This document shows positions 5,449 to 48,583 of a stretch of 56,243 nucleotides of DNA, piece after piece. The stretch covers positions 1-56,243 of IMG/VR virus record IMGVR_UViG_3300009177_000011; one strand, written 5' to 3'. Source of the stretch: a virus. The stretch's first letter is position 1. Each line of letters starts with the position of its first letter. The notes below the pieces were generated by a model. It did not search any database and was not told the origin of the DNA. It saw only the letters and a list, made by a program, of their open reading frames with translations. A program made the translations under genes and the position numbers.

Positions 5449-5691
5449 ATGTTTCGTTGTACTGTAGTTTACGGTCCCGACTCCACGGAGCACCAGAGTG
5501 ATTCGCCGATTTATATCCGCGACGTCAAGAACTCGGATGAGCTGCGTGATGAGTTGGGTTACGGTGATAACGTCAATCTCCTGATTGGCGGCATTGCCAT
5601 GCCTGAAGACGCGCTGGTCCCGAACGGGTCCACGGTGGTGATTGAAACCGCGGCCAATAAGAAGGCCACGGTCGAACTCGCCCTCGCGTAA
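5449..5691 (+). CDS. Ubiquitin-like (beta-grasp) protein, candidate
   Basis: 80 residues with an ACCAAAGGAAAC leader. The pattern of strand (FRCTVVYG), helix (DELRDELG), strand (NVNLLIGG), then a loop and a final hairpin (NGSTVVIETAANKKATVEL) fits the beta-grasp fold of ThiS/MoaD and prokaryotic ubiquitin-like proteins. Direct linkage to E2-like, E1-like and JAB-like genes is the strongest argument. The C-terminus is ELALA, not Gly-Gly. It would therefore need processing, or be modified in another way, before activation. Fold assignment is inference from pattern and neighbourhood. Confidence 0.55.
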   Translation: MFRCTVVYGPDSTEHQSDSPIYIRDVKNSDELRDELGYGDNVNLLIGGIAMPEDALVPNGSTVVIETAANKKATVELALA

Positions 5692-5706
5692 GCGACAAAC
5701 CTCACC

Positions 5707-5742
5707 GCCCGGCTCATGAGTCAACCAGCTCGTGGGCCGGGC
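5707..5742 (+). terminator. Terminator-like hairpin between the Ub-like and E2-like genes
   Basis: GCCCGGC (5707-5713) pairs with GCCGGGC (5736-5742), followed by TCTTTATT. It lies between the ubiquitin-like gene and the ribosome site of the E2-like gene and could lower downstream expression. Confidence 0.5.
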
Positions 5743-5772
5743 TCTTTATTCTTACAAACCAAAGGACAGATT

Positions 5773-6519
5773 ATGCAAGAAACATTAGACTATATCATTA
5801 CTCGAGAGGGCAAGGTCTACCGCCGACATAGAAAGTTGGAGGAGATCGACCCTGGAGATGCCATTCAAAAGGCGTTCGCTCAAAACATTGTCATCCCCGT
5901 CCGAAATTTCCTGGAGTTGCCGGGACACGGGCCGGTGAACATGGTGTTCCAACAGCAGGACAGCGTGATTCATGTGTCCGTGCCACTGGAAACCATCAAC
6001 TTCCGCACCTCATTCAAAGCCATTACCGCGGACGAGGGCTACAAGAACCAGCTCTTTCCCTCATTCCATCCCAAGCACAGCGAGGACCCCATGATGGAGA
6101 TTGAGTGGGTGCGTGCCGACGCGATGATGAAGCAGGACGCGACCATGCGACTGCGGTTTCACATCATGATTAAGCCGCACGTCACCGGCTGGATGGCCTT
6201 CGACCACTACCTCTACGCCTTCGACGGCCGTGGGGTGGCTTACCGGCTGCCCATCGCCAATCTCTTCGACACGTGCCAGGTCTGCATGGGTGAGTACAAC
6301 TCGAAGTCGGAAACGGTTATGGAAACTGTGGCGAAAGCGCTGCATCAGTTTCGCACCGCATCATGGAACGCGGACTTGTTCAAGAACTCGGAGGATGTGT
6401 GGAAGTTCATACGGTTCAAAGCGCTGGACAATGGCTTTGCCACGCAGCCGATTATCGTTCCTTGGACCACCATGTGCGCCAAGGTAAACCCTGCATTCCT
6501 TAAATTCTGCCAGTTATGA
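5773..6519 (+). CDS. E2-like protein (PRTRC protein B / Prok-E2 type), candidate
   Basis: 248 residues. The start at 5773 is set by ACCAAAGGACAG; the frame extends to 5716 without a ribosome site. A central beta-rich region leads to the motif LPIANLFDTCQVCMGE (residues 159-174). In the prokaryotic E2-like family of PRTRC cassettes a cysteine in a similar 'N-(l/v)-(f/y)...vC-x-G' context is proposed as the conjugating residue. Cys171 (and Cys168) are candidates here. It would accept the ubiquitin-like protein from the E1-like enzyme at 6865. The gene overlaps the next by ATGA. Confidence 0.55.
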   Translation: MQETLDYIITREGKVYRRHRKLEEIDPGDAIQKAFAQNIVIPVRNFLELPGHGPVNMVFQQQDSVIHVSVPLETINFRTSFKAITADEGYKNQLFPSFHPKHSEDPMMEIEWVRADAMMKQDATMRLRFHIMIKPHVTGWMAFDHYLYAFDGRGVAYRLPIANLFDTCQVCMGEYNSKSETVMETVAKALHQFRTASWNADLFKNSEDVWKFIRFKALDNGFATQPIIVPWTTMCAKVNPAFLKFCQL

Positions 6520-6860
6520 GCACACCCAATCCTACTCTTCCCCTGCTGTTGGATGGGTGCAGGACTGTACCGGAGACTTGCACCGAGAGATGGAACAACA
6601 TAATCACGTCTTGTGCCTACCAGATTGCAGAGGATCGATACGATAATCGTGGATCTCCTTATGAGCGCCACAACTGCACAGTGGCGGCCATGATCTGCAC
6701 GGACCATCTTTTGAGGGATGCGATGCTGAACGCTAAAATCAACCTGGAACAGTTTGATAACATTGTTGAAGCGGCTAAGAGCATCATGTATGAGCGCACG
6801 CAGGAAAAAAATCCGGCAGCCAAGGTGGTCAACGTGCTTAACCGTATCTTGGAAGGATGA
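6516..6860 (+). CDS. Small helical protein of the Ub-like cassette
   Basis: 114 residues, mostly helical, with several cysteines (positions about 15, 22, 33, 54, 61). It starts by ATGA overlap with the E2-like gene and lies immediately before the E1-like gene. Small alpha-helical proteins of unknown function are known companions of prokaryotic E2/E1/JAB operons, so a partner or scaffold role is plausible. No catalytic motif visible. Confidence 0.5.
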   Translation: MSTPNPTLPLLLDGCRTVPETCTERWNNIITSCAYQIAEDRYDNRGSPYERHNCTVAAMICTDHLLRDAMLNAKINLEQFDNIVEAAKSIMYERTQEKNPAAKVVNVLNRILEG

Positions 6861-6864
6861 TGAC

Positions 6865-7692
6865 ATGAAAGCGAACATCTACATTATTGGCGGTGGGGGC
6901 GTGGGCAGCTGGCTCACCCCATCCCTCACTCTGCTCACTTCACCCGAGCAAATTACCTTGATCGACATGGATATGCTGGAAGAGAAGAACCTCGACCGGC
7001 AGCTGTTCACACCCAAGGATGTTGGACGCTCGAAAGCAGAAGCGCTGGCCGAGCGTTACCGGTGCCGCTTCCGGCACGATTGGTTCTGTGAAGGGCTGAT
7101 GGAGTTCGAGGAGGATGACTGGCTCATCGTGTGTGTCGACAATCACCGGGCGCGGCGTGCCGCTCTGGGTGAATGTGACCGCTACGGTTGCCGCGCCATC
7201 TTCGCAGCGAACGAGACACACTCGGCCGAGGCTTACTTCTACCAGCGTGACTGGCGGGACACAGCCATCGATCCGCGCGTTTACTTCCCGGACATCCTCA
7301 CGGATGCCAGTGGTGACCCGCGAGCCCGCGGCATAGGCTGCACGGGTGAAGCCCAGAAGGATAATCCCCAACTGGTCACCAGCAATGCACTGGCCGCGTC
7401 ACTCGCCGGCCATCTCTTCGCGCTGTGGCACCTCCACGCGCCGAAAGTCAAAGCCAAGACGATTCCGTCCCTTCCCTACCGTTTAGTCGCCAACCGCACC
7501 CGGCTGGAGACATTTCTAATCAAAGACAAACTACAAAACAAAGGACAAACCGATGAACGAGACAGATCCAATACCGCTACCGCCAGTGAGTCCATATCCC
7601 AACCCGATATACGCACCGGAGGAGACTTCAGCGACAGTATCGGCGAGCGAAACGCTGAGACAGCCGGAGCAGCTGCCGCAGGAGAGCATTGA
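6865..7692 (+). CDS. E1-like ThiF-family adenylyltransferase
   Basis: 275 residues; the start at 6865 follows GGAAGG. The Rossmann loop is GGGGVGS (residues 9-15), followed by IDMD (33-36), then NLDRQ (42-46) and Lys57. These match the nucleotide- and Mg-binding residues of ThiF/MoeB/E1 enzymes. VDNHRAR (91-97) fits the adenylation site, and Cys159 in GIGCTGE is the candidate thioester cysteine. It should adenylate and transfer the C-terminus of the ubiquitin-like protein at 5449. The last ~45 residues are low-complexity and overlap the next gene by 140 bp in another frame, so the functional protein may effectively end near 7550. Confidence 0.85.
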   Translation: MKANIYIIGGGGVGSWLTPSLTLLTSPEQITLIDMDMLEEKNLDRQLFTPKDVGRSKAEALAERYRCRFRHDWFCEGLMEFEEDDWLIVCVDNHRARRAALGECDRYGCRAIFAANETHSAEAYFYQRDWRDTAIDPRVYFPDILTDASGDPRARGIGCTGEAQKDNPQLVTSNALAASLAGHLFALWHLHAPKVKAKTIPSLPYRLVANRTRLETFLIKDKLQNKGQTDERDRSNTATASESISQPDIRTGGDFSDSIGERNAETAGAAAAGEH

Positions 7693-8371
7693 TATGGCCA
7701 CCAAGAAAGTCGAGGTGGGCATGGATGGCGCCAGCAAGACCGTCGAGGTCAAGGAGCCTCCCAAGAAAACATGCAACATGAAGGATGTGCTGCCAGTGAC
7801 AGTGATCCCTCTCATTGCTGCCAATCCCAAGAATCCCGTGATTCGTAACCTGCTGCTGGCACACTTGAAAGTGCCGGTGCCGGAAGAGTGCGACACGTTT
7901 GACAAGATCAAGGTTTGGATTGAACACAACATCAAGTGCGATAAGCCTGAGGACCCGATTGCACGCCAATATCGCATTCAACAGGAAGAAGAGGAGCGTC
8001 GTGCGCGTAACAGCGTCCAAGTCGCGGTGGCAGTGGAAGCCACCGATAGAGGCAGGTGCAATTATGCTCAGGACCAGAAAGGTGAAGGCGTAATTCCCCT
8101 GAACCGTGAACGCCTGGTTCGAATTGCCTCGGAGGCGGGTAATCCTTCTGACTTCTTTGAGTCAATCGAAACTGAGATACAGGATAACAGTCCGGGCGAT
8201 TATATCAGCATGAATGATGTGGAAGGCGCCTCCCGATATTACGACCATGAGGTCGACTACGACGACGACCAGGACTGCGCTGTGTCGTTGAAACCTGAGG
8301 GCAAAGAAGCTCTCAAAGCCGCGCTTCGAGAGGCTGACCCCGAGCTGTATCGCTCGCTTTTCGAAGAGTAA
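7553..8371 (+). CDS. Acidic hypothetical protein of the Ub-like cassette
   Basis: 272 residues. The start at 7553 has the typical ACAAAGGACA leader but overlaps the E1-like gene by 140 bp. A second start at 7694, two bases after the E1-like stop and preceded by GGAGAG, gives 225 residues. The N-terminus is proline-rich if the first start is used. The central region (KKTCNMKDVLPVTVIPLIA) is followed by helices. The C-terminal part has a segment GRCNYAQDQKGEG and a very acidic stretch (DHEVDYDDDQD), reminiscent of phage hypothetical families. Function unknown; its position between E1-like and JAB-like genes suggests involvement with the cassette. Confidence 0.6.
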   Translation: MNETDPIPLPPVSPYPNPIYAPEETSATVSASETLRQPEQLPQESIDMATKKVEVGMDGASKTVEVKEPPKKTCNMKDVLPVTVIPLIAANPKNPVIRNLLLAHLKVPVPEECDTFDKIKVWIEHNIKCDKPEDPIARQYRIQQEEEERRARNSVQVAVAVEATDRGRCNYAQDQKGEGVIPLNRERLVRIASEAGNPSDFFESIETEIQDNSPGDYISMNDVEGASRYYDHEVDYDDDQDCAVSLKPEGKEALKAALREADPELYRSLFEE

Positions 8372-8398
8372 ACCAACCAGTAAATCAAAGGACAGACT

Positions 8399-9598
8399 AT
8401 GGCAAAAATGAAGTTAAAGGGCGGAGTCATTGAGGACGACGCCTCCATCGAAGGTCTATTCGACTGCACGATGAAGTACGAAGTAAAAACCACCAAAGCC
8501 ACCATCGACTGGAAGGGACCCAAGATCCCGCCAGAAGTGTGGAATGAGGTACTCTCGTTCTTCCAGTGGTGCTACGACACCTACAAGAGCGAGTGCCAGG
8601 TGCGGCTGTTTGTCAGCCCCACGCTGCGGACATGGAAGGCTTACGCTTTCCCACAGGAAGCCAAGACGGGCATGACCGCTCGGGAGTTGGACAACGAGGA
8701 GAAGAACCGGCAGCGGGCCGAGTTGAATCTCAATCCGCCGGACTGGTACTACTTCGGCACAGTCCATCATCACTGCTCATCGGGCGCCTTTCAATCTGGC
8801 ACTGATGAAAACAATGAGAAAGATCAAGACGGCATTCACATCACCATTGGCCACATGGATAAGAAGGACAAGTACGACATCCATGGGCGGTTCTACCGCA
8901 AGGGCCTTGTGATTCAGGACGGCAACCTCGACATGAGTTGGTTCTGGGACGTGGAGGCTATACGCGCACAGTGCCCGTTGGCATTCCGGGAGTTCCTGCC
9001 GGCCGACTGGGCCAATAAGCAGGCGCGACGGCTGATGACCATTCCGCCCGCTGAGCTGGTGTTCCCGGACCAGTGGAAGCAGAACGTGATCGAGATTCCA
9101 ACTCCTCCGCCCACGGTCTACAACGGCACCAACAGTGGACACTACTACGGTAATTACCATCAGAATCGGGATGCAGGTCCATCGGTGTACTCGCCGGAGA
9201 CAGACCCGCTCTGGCAGCGCTGCCGGGCCGCGTGGAAGGAAATCCTGTATCGGTGTGTGAAGCACGAGATTGGGGAGGATGATATTGAACAGGGGCTCGG
9301 CGAGCTGGCATTGACGAACTTCGCGCCGAACATCATTGTGCACGCGTGCCGCCACCACAAAGTGGACCCGGAGGACTTGGAGAAGGATGGTCCGCTGAAT
9401 CTGCAACAAGCGTTGGTGGAGGAAGCACTCCAGCAGCAGAAAGATGCTGAGGACCTCAAGCAGAGGACTCAAGACCCAAAATCCAACCCCAGCACGGGAA
9501 GCAAAGGGGCCGGCGCTGGAAGCATGGGCGAAAGCGAAGGTCCGGGCACCGGGCTCACTGGTGAGGACCCAGACTGGTCCATCATCCACGGTATCTAA
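8399..9598 (+). CDS. JAB/MPN-type metalloprotease-like protein
   Basis: 399 residues with an ATCAAAGGACAG leader. Residues 120-136 read GTVHHHCSSGAFQSGTD. This contains the JAMM zinc signature H123-x-H125-x7-S133-x2-D136 used by JAB deubiquitinase-like peptidases, and Glu65 is a candidate for the upstream catalytic glutamate. The PRTRC protein A family has the same kind of domain. The C-terminal half contains a tyrosine/histidine/asparagine-rich linker and a long Gln/Asp/Lys helix with a glycine-rich tail, not part of a JAB fold. It would process or remove the ubiquitin-like protein encoded at 5449. Confidence 0.75.
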   Translation: MAKMKLKGGVIEDDASIEGLFDCTMKYEVKTTKATIDWKGPKIPPEVWNEVLSFFQWCYDTYKSECQVRLFVSPTLRTWKAYAFPQEAKTGMTARELDNEEKNRQRAELNLNPPDWYYFGTVHHHCSSGAFQSGTDENNEKDQDGIHITIGHMDKKDKYDIHGRFYRKGLVIQDGNLDMSWFWDVEAIRAQCPLAFREFLPADWANKQARRLMTIPPAELVFPDQWKQNVIEIPTPPPTVYNGTNSGHYYGNYHQNRDAGPSVYSPETDPLWQRCRAAWKEILYRCVKHEIGEDDIEQGLGELALTNFAPNIIVHACRHHKVDPEDLEKDGPLNLQQALVEEALQQQKDAEDLKQRTQDPKSNPSTGSKGAGAGSMGESEGPGTGLTGEDPDWSIIHGI

Positions 9599-10000: not shown

Positions 10001-10248
10001 ACCTCCTTTCCAGCGTGGATGCGGCCAGCCTTTCGATTCTGAAGGACCCGTTTGATTCCAAGAATATCAACGCGGTCATGCTGCGGGCGTGGCGAATGCA
10101 CGACGGCACCTTTGCCCACTACGCCACCATTGAATTTAAGAACGGTGACACCAAAGGTGAGCAGAGAATCGATGCCGCCTCCTTTGACGAACTGATTTTC
10201 AAAACCAAGGCGTTCATTGAGACGCTAAAACCGAAAGTACACACATGA
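9997..10248 (+). CDS. Hypothetical protein
   Basis: 83 residues, coupled by ATGA on both sides, so it is translated together with the Rad52-like gene. A central strand pair (YATIEFKNGDTKGEQRI) is followed by a helix (FDELIFKTKAFIETL). A small accessory role in recombination is possible but unproven. Confidence 0.55.
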   Translation: MNLLSSVDAASLSILKDPFDSKNINAVMLRAWRMHDGTFAHYATIEFKNGDTKGEQRIDAASFDELIFKTKAFIETLKPKVHT

Positions 10249-11540
10249 GTGACACAACTGAAGATATGGAACATTACGACCCGTCCGAGTGGGCCGATCG
10301 ACAAGCAGCGGCTCAAGCAGCCGGACATGAACCGCAAGCGAACGAACCGATGCCAGTGATACAGGTGAGAGATAGGCCGCTTCCCGTGTCCACCGCGGTG
10401 GACAAACCGATCACCACGCCGGAACAGGCTAAGGTGGATGCGGTGGCCGGCCTGACCATGACCGCGTACGCCCGGGCGAGCGAGCTGAAGCTGACACCGG
10501 AGGAGCAGGAAAAGCTCCAGAAGGAGTTCCCGGATGAGGCCTTCCGACCCGGCGCAGCCGGCAAGGAGAACCTGCTTTACATCGAGCACGCGTTCCTGAG
10601 GGACCGGCTTAACGAGGTGTTGGGGCTCGGCCAGTGGTCGATCATCCCCCGCAAGCGTTGGGCTGAGGACTTTGAGATTCCGCCCAAGAACCGTGGCGAT
10701 GCCCCAGTGCAGGCCAGCCGGGTTTACGTGGAGGCCATGCTTGTAGTACGAGGCTGCTTTGTGGCTGAGGCGATTGGGGACATGGTGTACTACAAAAACA
10801 ACCAGTCCCAGAACTATGGAGATGCCGTGGAGGGGGCAAAAACTGCCGCCCTGCGTCGGTGTACCAAAGAGCTTGGCATTGGGCTCCAAGCGTGGAAGAA
10901 GGACTGGTGCCAGGGATGGTGGCAGCGCAACCCGAACGGTAGGACGTCCCATGGCCATCAGGGCGCGTCCGGCAATCGGCAGCCACAATCACCCTCCCAG
11001 AGCCGAACGGCAGCGCCAGCCCCCCAAAGCGCACCAAAGCCCGCCGCTAAAACCGCTGACTTGGTCCCTCCGCCAGCAGCTGAGGCTACCCAAGACCAGC
11101 GGACCCGGTTCATCGCCATGTTCCCGGGAACGGCGGCCGACTACGCTACGGTTTACTTTGTCGATAAAGGATGGCTGAAGAAGGGTGAAACCCTCGCTCA
11201 GTTGCCATTAAAGCACGTTCCGACCACCAGAAAGGTGGCTGAGGACCTCGTGGCGCAGGTGGACGCCTTCGCTTCCCGACCTCCAGCTGGTCAGGAGGAG
11301 GCATGGCGGTCCTTCAAGATGCCATGGGGCAAGAATAAGGACACCCCACTCGCTGAACTGGAAAAGAACTACCTGTTCGGACTTGTAATGAATTACGAGG
11401 TGGAGCGCGAGTATAAAGGCCAACCGAAGAGGGAAGAGGCCATCGCCAAGGACGAAGAGTTTCGTCGGATGCTCGACGATGCTGGTCGCCACTACGACTG
11501 GATTAAACAACGCGACCCATCCGACGATCGACCGGAATAA
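10245..11540 (+). CDS. Rad52-like single-strand annealing protein with ExoX-like C-terminal domain
   Basis: 431 residues. The core (about residues 105-225) contains LLYIEHAFLRDRLNEVLG, a strand pair, then GDAVEGAKTAALRRCTKELG, typical of Rad52/Rad22-type phage annealing proteins that pair single-stranded DNA during recombination. A Pro/Gln/Ala-rich linker follows. Near residues 358-400 the motif FKMPWGKNKDTPLAELEK matches the small domain found at the C-terminus of exonuclease X-like and related proteins. It pairs functionally with the nuclease at 13132. The palindrome at 10387 encodes Ser-Thr-Ala-Val-Asp in the disordered N-terminal region. Confidence 0.8.
   Translation: MSDTTEDMEHYDPSEWADRQAAAQAAGHEPQANEPMPVIQVRDRPLPVSTAVDKPITTPEQAKVDAVAGLTMTAYARASELKLTPEEQEKLQKEFPDEAFRPGAAGKENLLYIEHAFLRDRLNEVLGLGQWSIIPRKRWAEDFEIPPKNRGDAPVQASRVYVEAMLVVRGCFVAEAIGDMVYYKNNQSQNYGDAVEGAKTAALRRCTKELGIGLQAWKKDWCQGWWQRNPNGRTSHGHQGASGNRQPQSPSQSRTAAPAPQSAPKPAAKTADLVPPPAAEATQDQRTRFIAMFPGTAADYATVYFVDKGWLKKGETLAQLPLKHVPTTRKVAEDLVAQVDAFASRPPAGQEEAWRSFKMPWGKNKDTPLAELEKNYLFGLVMNYEVEREYKGQPKREEAIAKDEEFRRMLDDAGRHYDWIKQRDPSDDRPE
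10387..10404. repeat. 18-bp palindrome copy 2 (perfect)
   Basis: TGTCCACCGCGGTGGACA, perfectly self-complementary and read as STAVD in the Rad52-like gene. Confidence 0.95.
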
Positions 11541-13131: not shown

Positions 13132-13986
13132 ATGCGAATTACCAATCATGCAAATCTGCCTGAGCCACTGGTTCGGGCCATCAGTGCGGACGACTACGAC
13201 AAAGGAGGCGCCGACTTCTCGGTGACCGAACTCATCAAACCTCCACGCATCGCTGCGCTGGAGCAGAAGCACTGGGAGGAGTTGGAGGAGGATGCGGCCG
13301 ACCGGCTGTGGCTCCTGATGGGCAAGGCCGGCCACGAAGTGCTGCGCCGTTCCAGTCAGGGCGGCATCGTGGAGGAGCGGTGCGTCGTTGAGTTGGACGG
13401 GTACAAAATCTCCGGCCAGCTGGATTACGCCAAGACTGAGGAATCGATCATCGACTACAAGTTCGTTTCGCTCTGGGCCATCCGGGACGGCATCAAACCG
13501 GAGTGGGACCAGCAGCTCAACTGTTACAAGTACATGTGCGAGCTGTACGGCGTGCCGGTGAAGGAGCTGAAGATCATCGCCATCCTGCGCGACTGGAACG
13601 TCAACGAGGCTAAGCGCAATCCTGAACTACCGCAGTCGCAGGTCGTAGTGATGCCTGCTCGCATCTGGACCAAGGAAGCAGTGGAACGGTGGATGCGAAC
13701 CCGCATCGCGCTTCACCTCAACGCTCGTAGTGGAGTTCTGCCCGAGTGCACGCCCGACGAAATGTGGGAACGACCCGAGCGGTTCGCGGTGATGAAGAAA
13801 GGCAATAAGAAAGCCAGCCGCGTGCTGGACTCCAAGCTGGAAGCCGGCCAGTGGATGGCCAGCCAACCCAACCCTTCTCAATTCGAAATCGAAGTGCGGC
13901 CAGCGGAGCGGCCACGCTGCGAAAATTACTGCTCCGTATCGCAGTTTTGTGAACAGTTCAAACGATGGAAAGGACAGAACAAATGA
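13132..13986 (+). CDS. RecB/Cas4-like PD-(D/E)XK nuclease
   Basis: 284 residues. The core has an upstream helix ending in a histidine (LMGKAGHEVLRR), then GQLDYA..., then IIDYKFV (about residues 95-115). This gives the D-x(n)-D/E-x-K active site of the PDDEXK superfamily, with QLNCYKYM as the following QxxxY-like motif. The C-terminal RCENYCSVSQFC resembles the cysteine cluster of Cas4/AddB-like nucleases, though only three cysteines are visible. It probably resects DNA ends for the Rad52-like protein at 10245. Confidence 0.8.
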   Translation: MRITNHANLPEPLVRAISADDYDKGGADFSVTELIKPPRIAALEQKHWEELEEDAADRLWLLMGKAGHEVLRRSSQGGIVEERCVVELDGYKISGQLDYAKTEESIIDYKFVSLWAIRDGIKPEWDQQLNCYKYMCELYGVPVKELKIIAILRDWNVNEAKRNPELPQSQVVVMPARIWTKEAVERWMRTRIALHLNARSGVLPECTPDEMWERPERFAVMKKGNKKASRVLDSKLEAGQWMASQPNPSQFEIEVRPAERPRCENYCSVSQFCEQFKRWKGQNK

Positions 13987-19688: not shown

Positions 19689-19774
19689 GAGTGGTCGACT
19701 ACGTACCACTCTTGATCCTTATCACGGTAGCCATCGGGCTGTTTCTGGACTGGCTACTTCGTCGGAGAAGATGA
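19682..19774 (+). CDS. Tentative single-span membrane peptide (30 aa)
   Basis: Begins seven bases before the NADAR stop. It encodes one membrane helix (YVPLLILITVAIGLFLDWLL) and ends RRRR. Its end overlaps the end of the convergent giant gene by 21 bp. It could be a small membrane effector; weak support because of length. Confidence 0.35.
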   Translation: MLRVVDYVPLLILITVAIGLFLDWLLRRRR

Positions 19775-22700
19775 CTTCTCCAAGTCATCCAGCAGCATGT
19801 TCTCAAAGTTGCTGAAGGTTTTCTGCCGCTCCAAACGGGCACGCGAGTACAAATCCAGCTCGTGATCCGAAAGGTCCGACAGAAAGAACTTCTCAACGGC
19901 TTTACTGCCCGTGAAAGCTCGTCCGTTCCACAGCTTCATGGCCTTGTAAATCTCATTATCCGTTCGACTCTCGCGCAACTTCTCCAGTGCCGCGTCGAAC
20001 GACTTCTTATCGCCGGTGGCGGCAGCGTGGCGCAGATCAGTGTAACCCAGTTCATCGGTCTGCACCTGCTGCCATCCGGCGCTTCTATCCAACCCGTTCG
20101 CCTTCACAAACCGGTCCGCCTTCTTGTAAATCTCCGACGAGGCGGTGGGTGCGGGCTCAGTCTTGATACCCACCGAGGCCATCGCCTGACGTTGAATGCT
20201 TCCCGGAGGAGGCGGTTCAGCCAATCCCACACGAGCTGCTCCCGCCTGCGCCAACTTGCTCAATGAAATCGGAACTGGAAGCAGGGATTTGCCCACTTCC
20301 TTTGCCAGTCCCGCTGTGCTGGTGATTTTCCTGTGACTCGGGGTTTCTCCTGTGGCCAGCACCATCGCGGCCTTGCCGTAAGGGCCGAGCTTATTCTCCC
20401 CAATCTGATGCAGCGCGTCGTACACGGTAGGCTTATTGCCCGCCAGACGGATGATGTCGTGGGTGATCTCGTTAAACAGCGACAATGGACTCAGGAAGAA
20501 GCCCTCACCCTTGCCGGTGACGTCGGGAATCCACGCATCCCATTTGTGACCCTCCTCTTCGTTCTTCCACGTGGGCTGACGCCGGGTGATGAGGTTGAGA
20601 ACCTGAGTCAACACAAACATGGAAGCCAACCCTCGCGCAATGCCTCGGCCAGCGGTGCCCAAGAGCGGCACATCCCGTCGCCCTGCCACGTACGATAGCC
20701 CACTCAGTCGGCCGGGCAGCGCCGTCTCCTTCTTGATGAGTCCTTCGACCCACTGGGGAGCGAGTCCGAACATGCGGAAGATGTCCTGAAAAGTCTGGTT
20801 CTTGATCCAGCCCTGCCGGCCAATGCTGCCCATGTAATTGTTCGTATCCCGCGAGATGTCGCTGATCAGCTTGCGGTAGTCCGTCTTGGGATTGTCTTTG
20901 CTCAGACGCTCAAACTCCTTCACCGCCGTTTCCAGCATCAGTCCGCGCGTCATTTTATCGAATAACCAACGGTTGTACTTCCCAATGATACCCATGCCTT
21001 CGACCTTGTAGATCGCGTCGGCAATCCGGCCCACATTGAGCCCGCGGTGGATGAACAGGTTCGCCACCTGACGCCGGGTAATTGTGGTAGTGCCTTTGGG
21101 CAGCTGCACGGTGATGGGCTCATTGGCCCAGTTGGCATCATCCTGGCTGACAAGTCCCTTCCTCACCGCCTCCGTCACATCTTCCGGTCGATACTCGAGA
21201 ATACTCAGGCCACCTTTGTAACCGCCTTTTCCAATACCATTGATCGACCAGTCGTAGGCCTTCAGCCTGCCCAAGTGGAACGTGTCGAGGAACAGGATGG
21301 TGTGCTTCAGCTTCTGACTGAACTGCATTGCGCGGCGGGTGACCGGGGTTGAGCGAATAATGCTGTCTCCCACCAGGGATTTGATGATGTCGACCGAGCC
21401 CTTGTGAACGGCCATGTAGCGGTTGCCGAAGTCCACCAACTCATAATCTGGTCCCGGTGTACCGTAGCTGCCATCAGGACGGTGCACCGGATTAGTCACC
21501 ATCGGTTTGCCAGTGTGAGCATCGCGCAAGGTGGTCAGTCCCTTCTCCCAGAGCCGAGCCTCAATCTGCCGCATTCCCTGACGCACGCGATGCGCCACGA
21601 GCGCGGCTCCATCCAGATTGAACGGGATGTAGTTGCCGGCCGCGATGGCTTCGTAATAATTACCAAAGGTCGCGGGCTTGCGGAAGTTCTTGCCGAGGAT
21701 CTTCGGCCCTTCCAGAAAGTGCACGCGGTCGCCATCAAACCACTCTTCATCGTACCGGCCCGGCAGGTAGTTCTCGGTGCGTTTGACCCGCATTCCCATG
21801 TCCCGCTCCTGACGGTGCTGCTGCTCCAGCTCCATCACCATCTTCGCCGCGGTGTCCTGAAGGTCCGGCTCATTCCAATGGTCGCGGGCATACTCCAGCT
21901 GGGCTCGCATCTTCTTCACCGCGCCCAACCGGGCCCGAGCGGCGCGGCGCTCGAGCATTCCATCCATGCCGCCGCCTTTGGAGGATAGAATGTTCTGGGA
22001 TTTTTGCTCGGCCTGATCGAGGTAATTGCTGAACTTGTCGAGATTATCGAAAGCCTTCTTGTTGAATTTCACCGTGCCGGTGCGCCAGTCAATCTCACCA
22101 TCGTCCACCATCTGCAGCACGGTTTCACGCTTGAGCTTGGCCAGCATCTGACCGCCACGAGCTTTGTCGATGGGGTCAGCCGAGGAGAACAGTCCCTGGA
22201 TGTTCCTCCAGATAGGGTCGGCTTCCATCTTGGCCATCAAATCCGGCTTGAGTGCTTCTGGCACTGGGTAGTCCACCGTGTACGCACCCGCTTGCACAAC
22301 CGTAGGCGCAGCCTTGAGCACCTCAGGATTACCGTTGGGCATCGACTTGTCGGCCGACGCGAGACGAATGGCACGGTCCACCTGATCACCAGCGATGGCA
22401 AACTTGTTGTCAGCAGCATCGCGACTGGCGGCCAGTTCCTGCTCAGATGCTTTGCGTTTGGCGTACGCTGTGATAACCCCAATCGCTTTGGCAGTATCTT
22501 CTTGAACTTCTTCCACCCGGCGCAGCATTGCGGGGCCCTGGTTCTTCCAAAAGTCCAACTGACCCTTATTGCCTTCACCCTTCGCGATCACCTTCTTCTC
22601 AGCGGCGAGAGATTCACCCGCCTCTTTCTCTGGTGGAGGCTCAGCTTCCATCTCGCGCGGCTTGAACATCTCGATCTGCGGATCATCCTCAAACTCCTGG

Positions 22701-25700
22701 GGAAAGTCCGGCTGCGCTTCCTGAATGGAGCGCGTCTTGGTCACCGAGTACTTCTGCTCGGGCACCTGACGGCTGGCCAGCTGGCGATAAATCGTGGGCG
22801 ACAGAGGCGCGGGATGCTCCCGGTTGAGTCTCGGCGTGAGATAACGCCCTTCACCCGGCAGCTTCTCGGGCGAGCGCACTGGCACACCTTCCGACTGGGG
22901 AGCCTGACGCGGACGTTGAACCTCAAAACCTTCGCCACGGGCCACCACTTCCGGCGGTGGCGGCGGCGAAGCGGTGGGAGCCTTCGAGCGCAGTGTGCTC
23001 AGGTCGCGGGCACCGGAGCGCTTTTGCCGTTCGAACTCGGCGAGCGAGCGCTTGATGGCTGCTTGAGTTTCTGGATCTCCTTCAACAGATGTGGGACGGC
23101 TTTGGTCCAGCGTCCGTTTGACGAAGTCGCTCCGGGTTTCGGATTGGTTGATGTTTTCATACAGTCGGTCCAGCACGTTGGAGAGCGCCTGATCTGGGGT
23201 CATGCCCCGGTTCTGGCGCTGCTCGATGTTCATCAGCTTCTCGAGTCCCGAGATCATCTGACGATTGGCGGTGACCCCGGACTTGAGCAACTTACGCTCA
23301 AACATCGTGCGGTCACTGGGGATGTTATCGCCAAAGAAATCGTGGAATGCCTTCAGCTCAGACTCTTCCGGTCGGGGCAAGTGGGAGGCGCGTTCCTTCG
23401 GGTACTGGAACTTCGTCTCGGACGTCGACATGGGTATACCTTCAAAGCGTCCGGTGCCCTGTTCGCGCATGCCGGTGGCTACTTCGTCCATGAAACGCTC
23501 GTAGAAATCACCGAGGTTGGCGAACTTCTGGTGGAAATTCTGAACCGGTTCCCGCAAGAGGATGCTGGCGATCGGCTGGTAATTTGGAAGCAGCTCATCA
23601 AGCGGACGATTGGGGCGGGTCTTGCCTTCCAGCGCAGGGTCCACCATGCGGGCCTTCCCGTCCCCGGCATAGGTCGACACCAGATGCACGGTCCCATCGT
23701 GTTTGCTGACCATTGCGGTCAACCTGCGGGTCACGGACACAGGCTTGTCCGAACCTTCGACGCGAGCGTCGGCCGTCAGGATGTCGGCCAGTTCGGTGGC
23801 ACTCTTGGCTTCACTGGGTGTGATGGCTCGTACCGGCAGAGACTGATAACGTTGCTCAGTTTCCACCTGGCGAGGAGAAATCTTCAGTTCAGGCAGTGTC
23901 TCGACTGCACCCATTTCCGTTGCTGACGTGGGCTGCACATCTTCACCGCCTGGAACGCCTCGCTTGGTGACAGCTCCAAACATCTCCGGCTGCTCACCGG
24001 CCTTCTCTTTCTTTCGAAGCATGGCCGGACCTTCACTGGAAGATCTCTCTACCGCGGCGTACGGACTAAAACCCTTGATGATTTTGTGCCCCTTGGGAAG
24101 CAGTCCATGAGTCCACACTCCCTGTGCGTTTATGGTGCCAATAGAGTCCACCAATTTTCCGCCGTATTTTTCAACCAATGCAGGGCCACCAGCGCTCACA
24201 TCATACTGCTTGCCTGAGTAGGCCGCGCGGTAGATGGAGCCATCAGGACGTCGCACGAGCACTACTCGTTCACCAGGAGCTGTTGGAGGAAGCTGAGATT
24301 CCAGATCATCTTTTGGCTTCTCCTCTCCCGCAGAATTTTCATCTTGCCTCAACATGAACGGTTGGTTAGCAACCTCCACGCCAGAGCTGACCGCATCCCG
24401 CGCGGCGGAGATGTTGTCGCGCACTTTGTCGAGGATGGACTTCTGGTGAGCGCTCAACTCGGAGTCGCGTAGGCCGCGGATTTTGCCCACAATGTGGGAG
24501 AGATAGTCCAAAGCCTGGGCAGTCCATCGTTCATGCAGGGCCATGCCCACAAAATCACTGCGGTCCATTCCCATCGCGCGTTCGACACGATTGCGAATGG
24601 CTTCGAAGCCAAGCTGAGCGGGCGAGAATTGTGAGGCATCACGTCCCTTAAGATACTGACGCTTGAGCGCGAACTGTTCGAAGGATGACAAGCTGTTCCA
24701 GAACGGCGCGGCGTCCTCAGGGTCAGTCTTGAGGTGAATATCCTCGTGTTCGAATGCGGACTTCACGGCCGATTGCTTCTCCTCCGGCGAGAGATCCTTC
24801 AGATCATTTTCCACCCACTTGGCGAATTGTTGAGGGTCCACCTCAATCTGTCCCGTGTCGTGGTTGGCCTTCATCACTTGGCCATCTTCAAGCGAAGCGA
24901 GCACTCCGCGATCCTCACTCATGTGAGGATCGAGCAGCCCCTGATGCTCTTTGCTCAGTGGAACTTCGGCTTCTTCCGGGCTGGGAGGCGTGAAAATTCT
25001 TCCGCCACCTTCCGCGGGGGACACTTCCGCTTCGACATTGATGGGTTGTGAGCGCACATCGCCATGAACCGGCGTTGCTTCGGCGTTTTTGCTGGCACTG
25101 GATTTACCCTCCGTAATGGAGTGGGCGAGCATGGCACCCATTCCAAGGTTGGCAGTGAGCGCTGTCCATGCCCGCGCTTTCTCTTCCGGAGTCTTGGCGC
25201 GGTCGAGAGCCTGAATGGATTCAGGCACGCCGGCCGCCATCTGCATTCCAAAGTAACCCTTCACCGGGGCAGTTTCTCCAAAGGGGAGAAGAGCTACATT
25301 GCCGGGGGTTGTGAAGCCTTCCATTACACCCGCAAGTCCTTCACCAACACCAGCCACCGCGCGTTCTGCTGGGGTGGCTGCGTCCATCTCCTGCTGCGTC
25401 AGCTTGGGCAGCTGCAGCATGGGTTTGTTTGGCTCAATCGGCGCCCCATTGTACCCAGCGAATCCCTTACCATATTGATCAGGTGCAGGGATAACATCCC
25501 CCGCCGTGGCCTGCTTCAGGTTGGTGAAGATCTTGGCCGCCACCGGTTCGACGACATTTTCCTGAATGGTGTTGAGGGCCTTGGAGACATAGGGAATCGG
25601 ACCTGCTTCACGAACGATGTCGTAATCAGGATTGAGACTGGCGGGAATGCCCAACTCGGAATAGTTCTCAGGAATGGCTCCCTTAGTGAGAGCGAGACGG

Positions 25701-25819
25701 TACTTGTCGTAGTCCGACAGAGTGACGTTGTCCTCTACCGCAAAGTCGTCGGGTGCCGGAGGGGTGAACTTCGGCTGTGATTCATCAATCTCATCAACTG
25801 CTGGAGGTTGAAAAGCCAT
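19754..25819 (-). CDS. Giant polyvalent virion protein (2021 aa)
   Basis: The start at 25819 is two bases after the upstream stop; the longer frame to 25921 lacks support. Long Pro/Glu-rich linkers separate several domains. About residues 355-362 read FEHEDIHL, an HExxH zincin-like motif. The short motif MLR recurs near residues 489 (FMLRQ), 598 (GPAMLRK) and 1096 (GPAMLRR), possibly marking domain boundaries. The last ~700 residues, with amphipathic helices and hydrophobic patches (GIARGLASMFVLTQVLNLI), resemble internal virion or ejected proteins of podovirus-like phages. A role in DNA ejection or host entry is likely but inferred. Confidence 0.7.
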   Translation of the reverse strand: MAFQPPAVDEIDESQPKFTPPAPDDFAVEDNVTLSDYDKYRLALTKGAIPENYSELGIPASLNPDYDIVREAGPIPYVSKALNTIQENVVEPVAAKIFTNLKQATAGDVIPAPDQYGKGFAGYNGAPIEPNKPMLQLPKLTQQEMDAATPAERAVAGVGEGLAGVMEGFTTPGNVALLPFGETAPVKGYFGMQMAAGVPESIQALDRAKTPEEKARAWTALTANLGMGAMLAHSITEGKSSASKNAEATPVHGDVRSQPINVEAEVSPAEGGGRIFTPPSPEEAEVPLSKEHQGLLDPHMSEDRGVLASLEDGQVMKANHDTGQIEVDPQQFAKWVENDLKDLSPEEKQSAVKSAFEHEDIHLKTDPEDAAPFWNSLSSFEQFALKRQYLKGRDASQFSPAQLGFEAIRNRVERAMGMDRSDFVGMALHERWTAQALDYLSHIVGKIRGLRDSELSAHQKSILDKVRDNISAARDAVSSGVEVANQPFMLRQDENSAGEEKPKDDLESQLPPTAPGERVVLVRRPDGSIYRAAYSGKQYDVSAGGPALVEKYGGKLVDSIGTINAQGVWTHGLLPKGHKIIKGFSPYAAVERSSSEGPAMLRKKEKAGEQPEMFGAVTKRGVPGGEDVQPTSATEMGAVETLPELKISPRQVETEQRYQSLPVRAITPSEAKSATELADILTADARVEGSDKPVSVTRRLTAMVSKHDGTVHLVSTYAGDGKARMVDPALEGKTRPNRPLDELLPNYQPIASILLREPVQNFHQKFANLGDFYERFMDEVATGMREQGTGRFEGIPMSTSETKFQYPKERASHLPRPEESELKAFHDFFGDNIPSDRTMFERKLLKSGVTANRQMISGLEKLMNIEQRQNRGMTPDQALSNVLDRLYENINQSETRSDFVKRTLDQSRPTSVEGDPETQAAIKRSLAEFERQKRSGARDLSTLRSKAPTASPPPPPEVVARGEGFEVQRPRQAPQSEGVPVRSPEKLPGEGRYLTPRLNREHPAPLSPTIYRQLASRQVPEQKYSVTKTRSIQEAQPDFPQEFEDDPQIEMFKPREMEAEPPPEKEAGESLAAEKKVIAKGEGNKGQLDFWKNQGPAMLRRVEEVQEDTAKAIGVITAYAKRKASEQELAASRDAADNKFAIAGDQVDRAIRLASADKSMPNGNPEVLKAAPTVVQAGAYTVDYPVPEALKPDLMAKMEADPIWRNIQGLFSSADPIDKARGGQMLAKLKRETVLQMVDDGEIDWRTGTVKFNKKAFDNLDKFSNYLDQAEQKSQNILSSKGGGMDGMLERRAARARLGAVKKMRAQLEYARDHWNEPDLQDTAAKMVMELEQQHRQERDMGMRVKRTENYLPGRYDEEWFDGDRVHFLEGPKILGKNFRKPATFGNYYEAIAAGNYIPFNLDGAALVAHRVRQGMRQIEARLWEKGLTTLRDAHTGKPMVTNPVHRPDGSYGTPGPDYELVDFGNRYMAVHKGSVDIIKSLVGDSIIRSTPVTRRAMQFSQKLKHTILFLDTFHLGRLKAYDWSINGIGKGGYKGGLSILEYRPEDVTEAVRKGLVSQDDANWANEPITVQLPKGTTTITRRQVANLFIHRGLNVGRIADAIYKVEGMGIIGKYNRWLFDKMTRGLMLETAVKEFERLSKDNPKTDYRKLISDISRDTNNYMGSIGRQGWIKNQTFQDIFRMFGLAPQWVEGLIKKETALPGRLSGLSYVAGRRDVPLLGTAGRGIARGLASMFVLTQVLNLITRRQPTWKNEEEGHKWDAWIPDVTGKGEGFFLSPLSLFNEITHDIIRLAGNKPTVYDALHQIGENKLGPYGKAAMVLATGETPSHRKITSTAGLAKEVGKSLLPVPISLSKLAQAGAARVGLAEPPPPGSIQRQAMASVGIKTEPAPTASSEIYKKADRFVKANGLDRSAGWQQVQTDELGYTDLRHAAATGDKKSFDAALEKLRESRTDNEIYKAMKLWNGRAFTGSKAVEKFFLSDLSDHELDLYSRARLERQKTFSNFENMLLDDLEKSSSPTK

Positions 25820-25820
25820 G

Positions 25821-26723
25821 TCATTGGGACTGCACTTTTTCCCAACTCTTCTCGTCGTTGGGGTCGCCACCGAGATAGCGTAGTCCACCGCGGTAGACAA
25901 CCCCGATCTTGTAACCCCCAACCGCCTTGCGCTCTGGAGTCGCCTTGTCCACCGCGGTGGACGTTTTGGTGCCCGTCTTGGCTTCCTGGCGCTTGCGGAT
26001 CAATTCGTTCAGATCGTCGGTCTTTTCGGTAACGCTTTGGTAATGAGGCTTCTGGCCGGGAATCTGAATGACATTGCCGATGACTTTACCTTCCGCGTTT
26101 GATACGGGTAGGGCGGCCGGAACGTTGGTGACCGTCTGAGGAATCGTGGCATATTTTTCCCAGCGCTGGGGAGCCACCTGCACGAGTGACTCGCTGGCGG
26201 CACCTGGAATGGCAAAGGTGTTGCCCGGTTTGAAGTCCGGGGGCACCGTCGAAAGCCGCCCGATCTCAGTCCCGGTCATGTAAGGCGAGATGTACTTGAG
26301 AGCCGCCTGCATGGTAGTCAATCCCTCTCCACCCTGTTCTTTGGGCAGTGTTGCCTTCTGGAATTTCTGGGTGGCAAGGAAACGGTCAGCAGCTTCCTTC
26401 GTTGTGGCGTCAAACTTCTTGCTGGCGAGATCATTGTCCTGCTGGTCAAGAGCCAGCTGCTGTTGCTTGTAGGCCTGCTCTACCTGCATCTTCTGCTGTT
26501 CCAGCTGATGCTCGTAATTGAGTTGCTCTGCTTTTGCGGCATTCTCCGCCGCAATCTCTTGAGCGCGTTGCTGGGTCTCCACCGCGAACTGCTGGGCCTG
26601 CTGCGACAGCCGGGCCTTTTGCATGTCGTTCTCCATGCCAATGCGAGCCGCGTTCTGTGCCAACTCCCCGTAGCCTTGAGCGGCAGCGGGTGTCAACCAT
26701 GGGGGAATGGTATAATTTGGCAT
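25821..26723 (-). CDS. Virion-associated coiled-coil protein
   Basis: 300 residues. Residues 15-110 form a long Gln/Ala/Glu coiled coil. A middle domain contains YISPYMTGTEIGRLS, and the C-terminus carries GLRYLGGDPNDEKSWEKV, a short motif that I associate with phage internal virion proteins. Two palindrome copies lie 64 bp apart near the C-terminus, one read as STAVD and one as VVYRGG. It sits between two structural genes and is probably an internal or ejection protein. Confidence 0.65.
   Translation of the reverse strand: MPNYTIPPWLTPAAAQGYGELAQNAARIGMENDMQKARLSQQAQQFAVETQQRAQEIAAENAAKAEQLNYEHQLEQQKMQVEQAYKQQQLALDQQDNDLASKKFDATTKEAADRFLATQKFQKATLPKEQGGEGLTTMQAALKYISPYMTGTEIGRLSTVPPDFKPGNTFAIPGAASESLVQVAPQRWEKYATIPQTVTNVPAALPVSNAEGKVIGNVIQIPGQKPHYQSVTEKTDDLNELIRKRQEAKTGTKTSTAVDKATPERKAVGGYKIGVVYRGGLRYLGGDPNDEKSWEKVQSQ
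25882..25899. repeat. 18-bp palindrome copy 4
   Basis: AGTCCACCGCGGTAGACA, two mismatches from perfect. Read on the minus strand as Val-Tyr-Arg-Gly-Gly. Confidence 0.85.
25946..25963. repeat. 18-bp palindrome copy 5
   Basis: TGTCCACCGCGGTGGACG, one terminal mismatch. Read on the minus strand as STAVD, 64 bp from copy 4. Confidence 0.9.
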
Positions 26724-47394: not shown

Positions 47395-47630
47395 TCTTGG
47401 TCTCTTTTTATGGCTTCGTTTCTCTGAAATTGTTCCTGAATAACCACCCATTCATTGATTTGACCCAGACGGGCGTAGAAGTTTCCCAGACCGCACTCGT
47501 AGCTGATGGTGTTCTCCTCACCGCCGGAATGAACAGTAACAAACACATGGACTGAGTCGCAGTGCTCAGCCAGCTGGGTGGCAACATCCAACACCCTTTT
47601 CTTCATTACTGATTTCTCGTCGTCGGTCAT
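47391..47630 (-). CDS. Hypothetical protein of the glycan block
   Basis: 79 residues, coupled by ATGA to both neighbours. Small alpha/beta-like (AEHCDSVHVFVTVHSGG). Unknown. Confidence 0.6.
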   Translation of the reverse strand: MTDDEKSVMKKRVLDVATQLAEHCDSVHVFVTVHSGGEENTISYECGLGNFYARLGQINEWVVIQEQFQRNEAIKRDQE

Positions 47631-48583
47631 TTTCGTTTTCTGAGGATTAGGAGTTCTTTGCTGACATGAGCTTCTTCGATGTCGCGCTCACCGAGCAGGA
47701 TGCGTCCGAGCAGCGTCTCCGCGAACTGCACCTGGTCCGGATAGCCCGGAGTGCGGCTATCAGGATTGTTGACACACTCGCGAAAGTCCTCGATGCAGTA
47801 ATACCCGCCAGGTTTCACATGTCCCCAAAGGTAGCTGAACGACATGATGATTGAACCCGAGGAGTGAGCCCCGTCGTCAATAACGATGTCGAACTGTTCG
47901 GGATAGGCTTCTACAAAGCGTTGCAGGTCGTAAGGGCTGAACGCGTTGCCCTTGAAGAACGAGAACCTATGGAGCAGGTCTTCGTCTATCGGCATTCCAA
48001 ACTTAAATTCGGCGATGTCGAGTCCTACCACTTTGGCTTTGGTGAAATACTGGAGCCACATCTTGATGGAGGCGCCCACGTTAAGTCCGATTTCCAGCAG
48101 GCGGATCGGTTCATTGCGCCACTTGGAAAACTCACGGTCATAGAACGGGGTGTACCCGTGTAGGATGTATTCACCGTCACCCTCGCGGCGCGTGCGTTTG
48201 TCGGTCCACAAGGCGGCGACTGGTTCCTGATGAGCGAGTTCGTCCAGCGACAATGCTTGATCGAGCATGGCGCAGTGAGAAGTTCCACCGTTCTGCTTCT
48301 CCATCTCTTCAGCGATCTTGAAACACAGGTCCGTCGCGATTTTGGATGCCTCGTTCGCGTTGAACACTTCTTTTCCCGGGCGCGGCTCCCACGCCATCGA
48401 GGCTGCGCCGATAGATTCAAAGACCGCGTGGTACAGGCTGGATGAGATGCGGTAGTTGAGTGGGCGCTTCTCGGGTGGGAGCGCGAGCGCCTCTTCTCGA
48501 GACATCACGATGTTTGTGAAAAACCCAGAGCCGTCAGGTAATTTGGCAGCAGTAGGTACGAACGGTTCTGATTCAGTGTTCAT
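47627..48583 (-). CDS. SAM-dependent methyltransferase
   Basis: 318 residues. Residues about 161-190 read RLLEIGLNVGASIKMWLQYF then KVVGLDIAEF, the SAM-binding glycine loop and acidic strand end of class I methyltransferases. Later DIVIDDGAHSSGS and WGHVKPGGYYCIEDF fit the MycE/TylE-like sugar O-methyltransferase group. It probably methylates a sugar assembled by the neighbouring glycosyltransferases. Confidence 0.8.
   Translation of the reverse strand: MNTESEPFVPTAAKLPDGSGFFTNIVMSREEALALPPEKRPLNYRISSSLYHAVFESIGAASMAWEPRPGKEVFNANEASKIATDLCFKIAEEMEKQNGGTSHCAMLDQALSLDELAHQEPVAALWTDKRTRREGDGEYILHGYTPFYDREFSKWRNEPIRLLEIGLNVGASIKMWLQYFTKAKVVGLDIAEFKFGMPIDEDLLHRFSFFKGNAFSPYDLQRFVEAYPEQFDIVIDDGAHSSGSIIMSFSYLWGHVKPGGYYCIEDFRECVNNPDSRTPGYPDQVQFAETLLGRILLGERDIEEAHVSKELLILRKRK

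Follow-up and report, generated by a model that had tools for sequence, protein, structure and literature searches.

A putative ubiquitin-like conjugation cassette in phage genomes that is related to the plasmid PRTRC (type 6d) operons

Introduction

The type 6d operon class of Iyer, Burroughs and Aravind (2006) consists of a ubiquitin-like (Ub-like) protein, an E2, an E1, a JAB and a helical protein (PMC1779556). The plasmid form of this class is named PRTRC by NCBI. No known function for PRTRC operons was found in our literature search, and the same search, which did not reach subscription papers, turned up no type 6d operon described from a phage. In this work, we have analysed a viral DNA of 56,243 nucleotides (IMG/VR record IMGVR_UViG_3300009177_000011, positions 1 to 56,243), the whole of which is referred to as the window, and we describe a cassette of six adjacent genes that it carries at positions 5449-9598. 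On balance, we favour the reading that this phage-borne cassette is a complete ubiquitin-like operon that works by reversible protein conjugation.

Results

Gene content of the cassette

A preliminary description of the window had proposed five or six adjacent genes at 5449-9598, and six open reading frames (ORFs) were found there, all on the plus strand. The motifs that it had quoted (GGGGVGS, IDMD, NLDRQ, Cys159, and LFDTCQVCMGE) were located as given, and the H-x-H-x7-S-x2-D motif was located in the JAB protein (HHHCSSGAFQSGTD). The six genes are listed below.

5449..5691, plus strand: predicted ubiquitin-like (beta-grasp, ThiS-like) tag, 80 amino acids (aa)
5773..6519 (the ORF opens at 5716), plus strand: E2-like protein, 248 aa
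6516..6860, plus strand: small, mainly helical partner, 114 aa
6865..7692, plus strand: ThiF-type E1 activating enzyme, 275 aa
7694..8371 (the longest ORF opens at 7553), plus strand: acidic partner, about 225 aa
8399..9598, plus strand: JAB/JAMM metalloprotease, 399 aa

Relatives of the cassette were gathered by scans with its proteins and then with alignments. They comprise some 20 more virus records together with four contigs of metagenome-assembled bacterial genomes, and they share 18-62% identity with the window in the E2 and 30-74% in the tag. With few exceptions, they keep the order Ub-E2-helical-E1-acidic-JAB, and this order is conserved across phages of 30-75% identity. The ratio of nonsynonymous to synonymous differences (pN/pS), calculated against two relatives, is below 1 in all six genes (0.27-0.75), where the lowest value belongs to the E1 and the highest to the helical protein. 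The operon is not a chance arrangement because the same order is seen in about 20 virus records, its pN/pS values lie in this range and its ThiF protein passes the Pfam cut-off. The gene content and the recurrence in virus records bear out the earlier view of the operon as compact, complete, and phage-borne.

Identity and active sites of the E1, JAB, and E2

The E1 matches Pfam ThiF (PF00899) at 58.8 bits (cut-off 28.1), and its identity as a member of the ThiF family is regarded as certain by profile comparison. The predicted catalytic Cys159 (GCTGEAQ) is invariant in 25/25 sequences. The conserved set of G9/G11/G12, D34, D36, N42-R45-Q46, K57, and D92 has a sole exception, which is one glycine in one of the 25 sequences. 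The E1-like ThiF enzyme that had been proposed is thus upheld by a profile match above the cut-off and by conserved nucleotide-binding and catalytic residues. The tail of the E1 is of low complexity after about residue 215.

The identities of the tag, the E2, and the JAB needed relatives, because the single-sequence Pfam scan was sub-threshold for the JAB (13.3 bits) and empty for the tag and the E2. The JAB matches the profile of PRTRC A (hhalign E 1.2e-8), and it carries the complete JAMM set (E-HxH-S-D), where Glu65, His123, His125, Ser133, and Asp136 are each invariant in 23/23 sequences. Both results agree with the JAB-type protease of the preliminary description.

Asn163, Cys171, and Gly173 of the E2 are invariant in 21/21 sequences. 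They belong to the motif P-x2-N-[LIV]-[YFH]-x4-[LIV]-C-x-G, in which the Cys is eight residues past the Asn. The Asn of the HPN motif and the catalytic Cys of classical E2s are also eight residues apart (Asn77 and Cys85 of UbcH5), and PRTRC B proteins share the Asn-Cys spacing of the phage family. Pfam Prok-E2_D matches 14/21 members of the E2 family (best 3e-4). The E2-like identity is supported by this match together with the spacing. The LFDTCQVCMGE motif from which that identity had been read is present, with the correction that the catalytic Cys would be the second one (Cys171, 21/21) since the first one (Cys168) is conserved in only 9/21.

The ubiquitin-like tag and its C-terminal tail

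The trimmed tag alignment matches the ThiS/MoaD profile (hhalign E 3.7e-5, score 29.5), and 300 column shuffles scored at most 16.4 (0/300 as good). This match supports the beta-grasp fold of the tag and fits the ubiquitin-like protein that had been proposed. The tail of the window tag is E66-T-x-A-N70-x-K72-A73, followed by seven extra residues (TVELALA). The tail is conserved as E-T-x-A-N-x-K, where Lys72 is invariant and the next residue is Ala in 12/13. Some tags stop at the conserved tail and others run on by up to about 30 residues. Tandem fusions of two tags are found in L017-L020 with A-N-S-K-A at the internal junction, and the tandem tag of L022 exhibits the junction variant A-Q-E-K-A. 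Such a tail repeated at tandem junctions is as would be expected of precursors that are processed by a protease.

The PRTRC C proteins have K-G at the corresponding place (G-[AT]-K-G) in 7/8 sampled proteins, and at the very end in four. The Cap2 protein of the cyclic oligonucleotide-based antiphage signalling system (CBASS) accepts Gly or Ala as the last residue of the cGAS that it conjugates (PMC10097602). It had been noted that the tag lacks Gly-Gly and that an unusual chemistry is implied. The former is correct, and the latter holds only partly because the tail A-N-x-K-A parallels the A-x-G-x-K-G of PRTRC and a C-terminal Ala is used by Cap2. From these two parallels, the JAB is predicted to trim after N-x-K-A and the E1 to activate the Ala.

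The helical and acidic partners

The start of the helical gene overlaps the E2 stop (ATGA). The helical protein, which carries an extra N-terminal fused region in some phages, is real but evolves fast. The acidic gene has an AGGAG 5' of the ATG at 7694 and a conserved MATKKVEV start, and this start is immediately 3' of the E1 stop at 7692. The true acidic gene is probably 7694-8371, with which the 140-nt overlap with the E1 is probably untranslated. Homologues of the acidic protein with the core P-x-N-x3-R...P...[WYF]-[IVL]-E are found in nearly every cassette, and the protein has no match in Pfam or, by hhalign, among PRTRC proteins. The PHROGs search of the cassette gave no useful assignment.

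A second gene 3' of the JAB with a C-terminal copy of the acidic-protein core was observed at L018:10788-11753 and L019:10559-11563, and the pattern suggests that the core is a mobile small domain common to partner proteins. A small acyl carrier protein-like protein (GADSLD motif) is encoded at L009:10937-11206 (same record as L002), some 1 kb 3' of the JAB gene.

Distribution and inheritance of the cassette

Because patterns of the E1 and the JAB served to collect the cassette-bearing sample, distant versions of the cassette are missed, and "absent" denotes that nothing was found in a record of comparable length. The search for the large terminase of the window covered 22 records, namely the window itself, 20 more virus records, and one bacterial genome, and 15 of these share it at 42-85% identity. 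Six cassette-bearing virus records do not share this terminase, which places the cassette in further types of phage or in fragments as well. Of the 19 terminase relatives with lengths of 44-58 kb, three have the complete set of four core genes and the other 16 have none of them. Parsimony on the terminase tree (28 records) gave five changes, of which at least three are forced by well-supported branches. The pairwise divergences of the E1, E2, and JAB are more strongly correlated among themselves (Spearman 0.71-0.76) than with that of the terminase (0.21-0.55). The all-or-none presence, the parsimony changes, and the correlated divergences show that the block is gained or lost as a unit.

Related cassettes were also identified in one Geobacteraceae bin and in 4/49 genomes of the family to which one Verrucomicrobia bin belongs; two of these four have in-frame stops. 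The cassettes in bacterial bins may be prophages, remnants, or binning errors. The E1 homologues with in-frame stops in the Verrucomicrobia-family genomes are L147 (three TGA) and L148 (one TAG), which would be either decayed copies or recoded elements.

The large terminase in the record of L021 was matched in three pieces within one 1236-aa open frame (G017:C1:50449-54093), which suggests inteins. The terminase matches of L058 and L124 are likewise stretched.

Genomic surroundings of the cassette

The cassette adjoins recombination genes and mostly sits just 5' of a recombinase gene. Two such neighbours outside the cassette are found in the window.

10245..11540, plus strand: Mgm101/Rad52-type recombinase (Pfam Mgm101p, 58.2 bits)
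13132..13986, plus strand: phage exonuclease of the recombination module (phrog_2139, E 3.7e-46)

The downstream recombinase is of the Mgm101/Rad52 type in the window, L003, L005, and L012. It is RecT in at least eight cassettes, those of L008, L010, L013-L016, L021, and L023 (L013, L015, and L023 by sequence likeness). An AAA ATPase that is Sak4-like by eye takes this place in L006 and G036 (G036 by sequence likeness). Exonuclease-like genes come next in many cassettes. We infer that the cassette is expressed early. The co-occurrence with recombinases (13/16 versus 5/14, Fisher p 0.024) is not used as evidence because an ERF-like gene was seen by eye in one cassette-negative relative, other recombinase families were unscreened, and relatedness was uncorrected.

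In the cassette-negative relatives, an AAA ATPase and a DUF2201 metallopeptidase lie 5' of RecT in at least three of four cases inspected. The DUF2201 metallopeptidase is present in 5/14 cassette-negative records versus 0/21 cassette-bearing virus records. The AAA ATPase and the DUF2201 metallopeptidase/VWA-like protein were located 5' of RecT at L139:4113-8723, L140:5737-8149 (minus strand), and L142:2089-6100, where the module of L139 holds a DUF3150-like protein too. In jumbo phages, a role in virion assembly has been proposed for a MoxR-vWA-metallopeptidase pair (PMC7824862).

Several plasmid relatives of the cassette are located close to ParB or DNA polymerase III genes. No ParB-family protein is found among the six cassette genes. 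ParB-like proteins (DGQHRL-type motif) were seen by eye near several cassettes, with a Pfam ParB match in 0/4 tested.

Elsewhere in the window, a 2055-aa open frame at 19754-25921 (minus strand) has no PHROG match and is probably a very large structural protein. A methyltransferase (phrog_21658, E 5.8e-19) is encoded at 47627-48583 (minus strand) in the minus-strand, probably late, region.

Discussion

Proposed mechanism and rival explanations

In the proposed mechanism, the JAB protease would trim the tag after the conserved N-x-K-A or would split tandem tags. The E1 would adenylate the new C-terminus, usually Ala, and load the tag onto Cys159, and the tag would move to Cys171 of the E2 with Asn163 aiding the reaction. 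The E2, steered by the helical and acidic partners, would join the tag to a lysine of a target protein, from which the JAB would take it off again. Every one of these catalytic steps is predicted from the protein sequences. The gene content, the conservation, the homology, the all-or-none inheritance, and the position by recombination genes were directly seen.

As a tentative first guess, the target may be a protein that acts on phage DNA around recombination or replication, because the block is found at that module though the recombinase family differs, and because several of the plasmid relatives have ParB or DNA polymerase III genes in their vicinity. The wider proposal is that a complete and reversible ubiquitin-like conjugation pathway with a Lys-Ala tail belongs to some tailed phages, which would use it in infection to control proteins acting on their own DNA. 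We consider this proposal possible but doubtful in its full form.

Several results weigh against reversible conjugation or against the guessed target. The AlphaFold model of the E2 has a predicted local distance difference test (pLDDT) score of 87, and its comparison with the PDB by Foldseek gave no significant match. Its best structural matches in BFVD are two uncultured Caudovirales proteins, A0A6J5NI06 (E 6e-9, template modelling (TM) score 0.58) and A0A6J5P0Y8 (E 6e-4, TM 0.40), both of which are unannotated and the latter of which is a much larger protein. With no PDB relative and only these two phage proteins as matches, the UBC fold predicted for the E2 is supported by sequence and motif and not by structure comparison. 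The single-sequence AlphaFold model of the tag (no alignment) was uninformative (pLDDT 49, no confident fold). No profile similarity was detectable between the tag and PRTRC C, the trimmed alignment included, or between the helical protein and PRTRC F. The residue after the conserved Lys is not strictly Ala, being N or Q in three relatives. Recombinases are present in cassette-negative relatives too, so adjacency proves no functional link.

The conjugation machinery may instead modify or decoy host immune proteins such as CBASS, Bil, or other DNA-sensing components. This counter-defence would suit an accessory and patchily inherited block in a probably early region, and it would suit the replacement of the cassette 5' of RecT by the AAA ATPase and DUF2201 metallopeptidase module, which is the pattern of exchangeable accessory slots. 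Most study of bacterial ubiquitin-like systems has also concerned their anti-phage role (PMC10097602). However, no anti-immune role is known for the PRTRC relatives on plasmids, and we hold counter-defence to be unlikely. The all-or-none accessory block would also fit superinfection exclusion, in which a Bil-like, phage-carried defence tags structural or replication proteins of a competing phage as it enters, and the Bil enzyme set equals in outline that of the phage cassette. This purpose is more improbable still, as the cassette lies inside a replication/recombination gene block and not in separately transcribed cargo, and no PADLOC model covers the whole gene set, the E1 alone being matched over its nucleotide-binding part. 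Counter-defence and rival exclusion are purposes of the same machinery, and the likelihoods assigned to them overlap with that of conjugation.

The tag matches ThiS/MoaD and the E1 belongs to the ThiF family, as would be the case in a sulfur-carrier or small-molecule pathway where the ThiF enzyme thiocarboxylates the ThiS-like protein, the JAB releases it, and the E2-like protein is non-conjugating. However, an E2-like gene with an invariant Cys is present in every complete cassette, the tag is without a C-terminal Gly, and no rhodanese or sulfur-acceptor gene was recognised in the cassette. We consider this pathway very improbable and have set it aside because of the conserved E2.

If the proposal of reversible conjugation by phages is true, their control of DNA-acting proteins by tagging would be the reverse of bacteria using such pathways against phages, which is the role in which bacterial ubiquitin-like pathways have mainly been studied so far. 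With all the enzymes, an invariant tail, tandem-tag substrates, and cassette-lacking relatives, the cassette makes a phage E1-E2-JAB pathway directly testable in vitro, and it may reveal the function of the whole operon class.

Comparison with known systems

The Bil and Bub operons share with the cassette a stand-alone ubiquitin-like protein, an E1, and an E2, with a JAB protease in Bil, and their E2 and tag families differ from those of the phage cassette. Both were described in bacteria, where they are immune or candidate immune operons (PMC13373217). Unlike the cassette, they are not known as phage-borne neighbours of replication genes. Type II CBASS (Cap2/Cap3) shares with the cassette the conjugation and removal by E1, E2, and JAB, and a C-terminal Gly or Ala is conjugated (PMC10097602). 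In that system Cap2 is an E1-E2 fusion and the modifier is a nucleotidyl cyclase, whereas the phage has separate genes and a dedicated beta-grasp tag; no CD-NTase modifier and no E1-E2 fusion were found among the cassette genes. The lambda-type tail assembly proteins, ubiquitin-like TAPI and JAB TAPK, are likewise a phage-encoded ubiquitin-like domain with a JAB (PMC1779556). They differ from the cassette in having no E1 or E2, in a C-terminal Gly, and in being late tail genes.

The gene set of type 6d, with separate Ub-like, E2, E1, JAB, and helical genes in one operon, is present in the cassette. Both consist of a small beta-grasp protein (ThiS-like in the phage), a separate E2 of the Prok-E2_D type, a separate E1 without rhodanese, a JAB, and a helical protein. 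Both E2s are without the classical HPN His and keep the Asn and Cys, and both tags have a tail with a conserved Lys adjoining the last residue. The phage E1 matches PRTRC ThiF (hhalign E 7e-19) and the E2 matches PRTRC B (E 1.3e-6), in addition to the match of the JAB to PRTRC A. The relation to PRTRC that had been suggested therefore stands as homology of the E1, E2, and JAB but not as membership, because the scores are under the curated NCBIfam cut-offs for ThiF (TIGR03736, 49.2 bits against 144.75) and for PRTRC A (TIGR03735, 11.3 bits, E 0.18, against 101.8). NCBIfam gave no match to PRTRC B, C, E, or F, of which hhalign picks up B and not C, E, or F.

The cassette also differs from PRTRC in its residues and layout. 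The C-terminal Gly of type 6d tags is absent, and the tail is K-A in the phage and K-G in PRTRC. The E2 His downstream of the Cys in type 6d and PRTRC B (S-x2-THPN) is replaced in the phage by W-N-x-D-L (Trp198-Asn199-x-Asp201-Leu202), where the aligned residue is Asp201 in 20/21 and His in 1/21. The JAB of type 6d is described with a JAB-N domain that has a conserved Arg and Trp. The phage JAB aligns over 35-191 to PRTRC A 72-217, so its N-terminal part is shorter, and it carries a long C-terminal extension. The acidic protein of the phage cassette was not found in PRTRC. The gene order of PRTRC is C-F-B-A-ThiF, and PRTRC is plasmid-borne whereas this cassette is phage-borne. In the E1 tree, the phage E1s form one clade (support 100/99) on a long stem, apart from the plasmid E1s in the sampled set. 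The filing of the cassette as a PRTRC member was rejected on the cut-offs and the defining residues. With scores under the cut-offs, the E2 His lost, the tag Gly absent, and an E1 clade of its own, the cassette is not a PRTRC member; by profile comparison, it is a diverged and homologous relative of PRTRC (type 6d).

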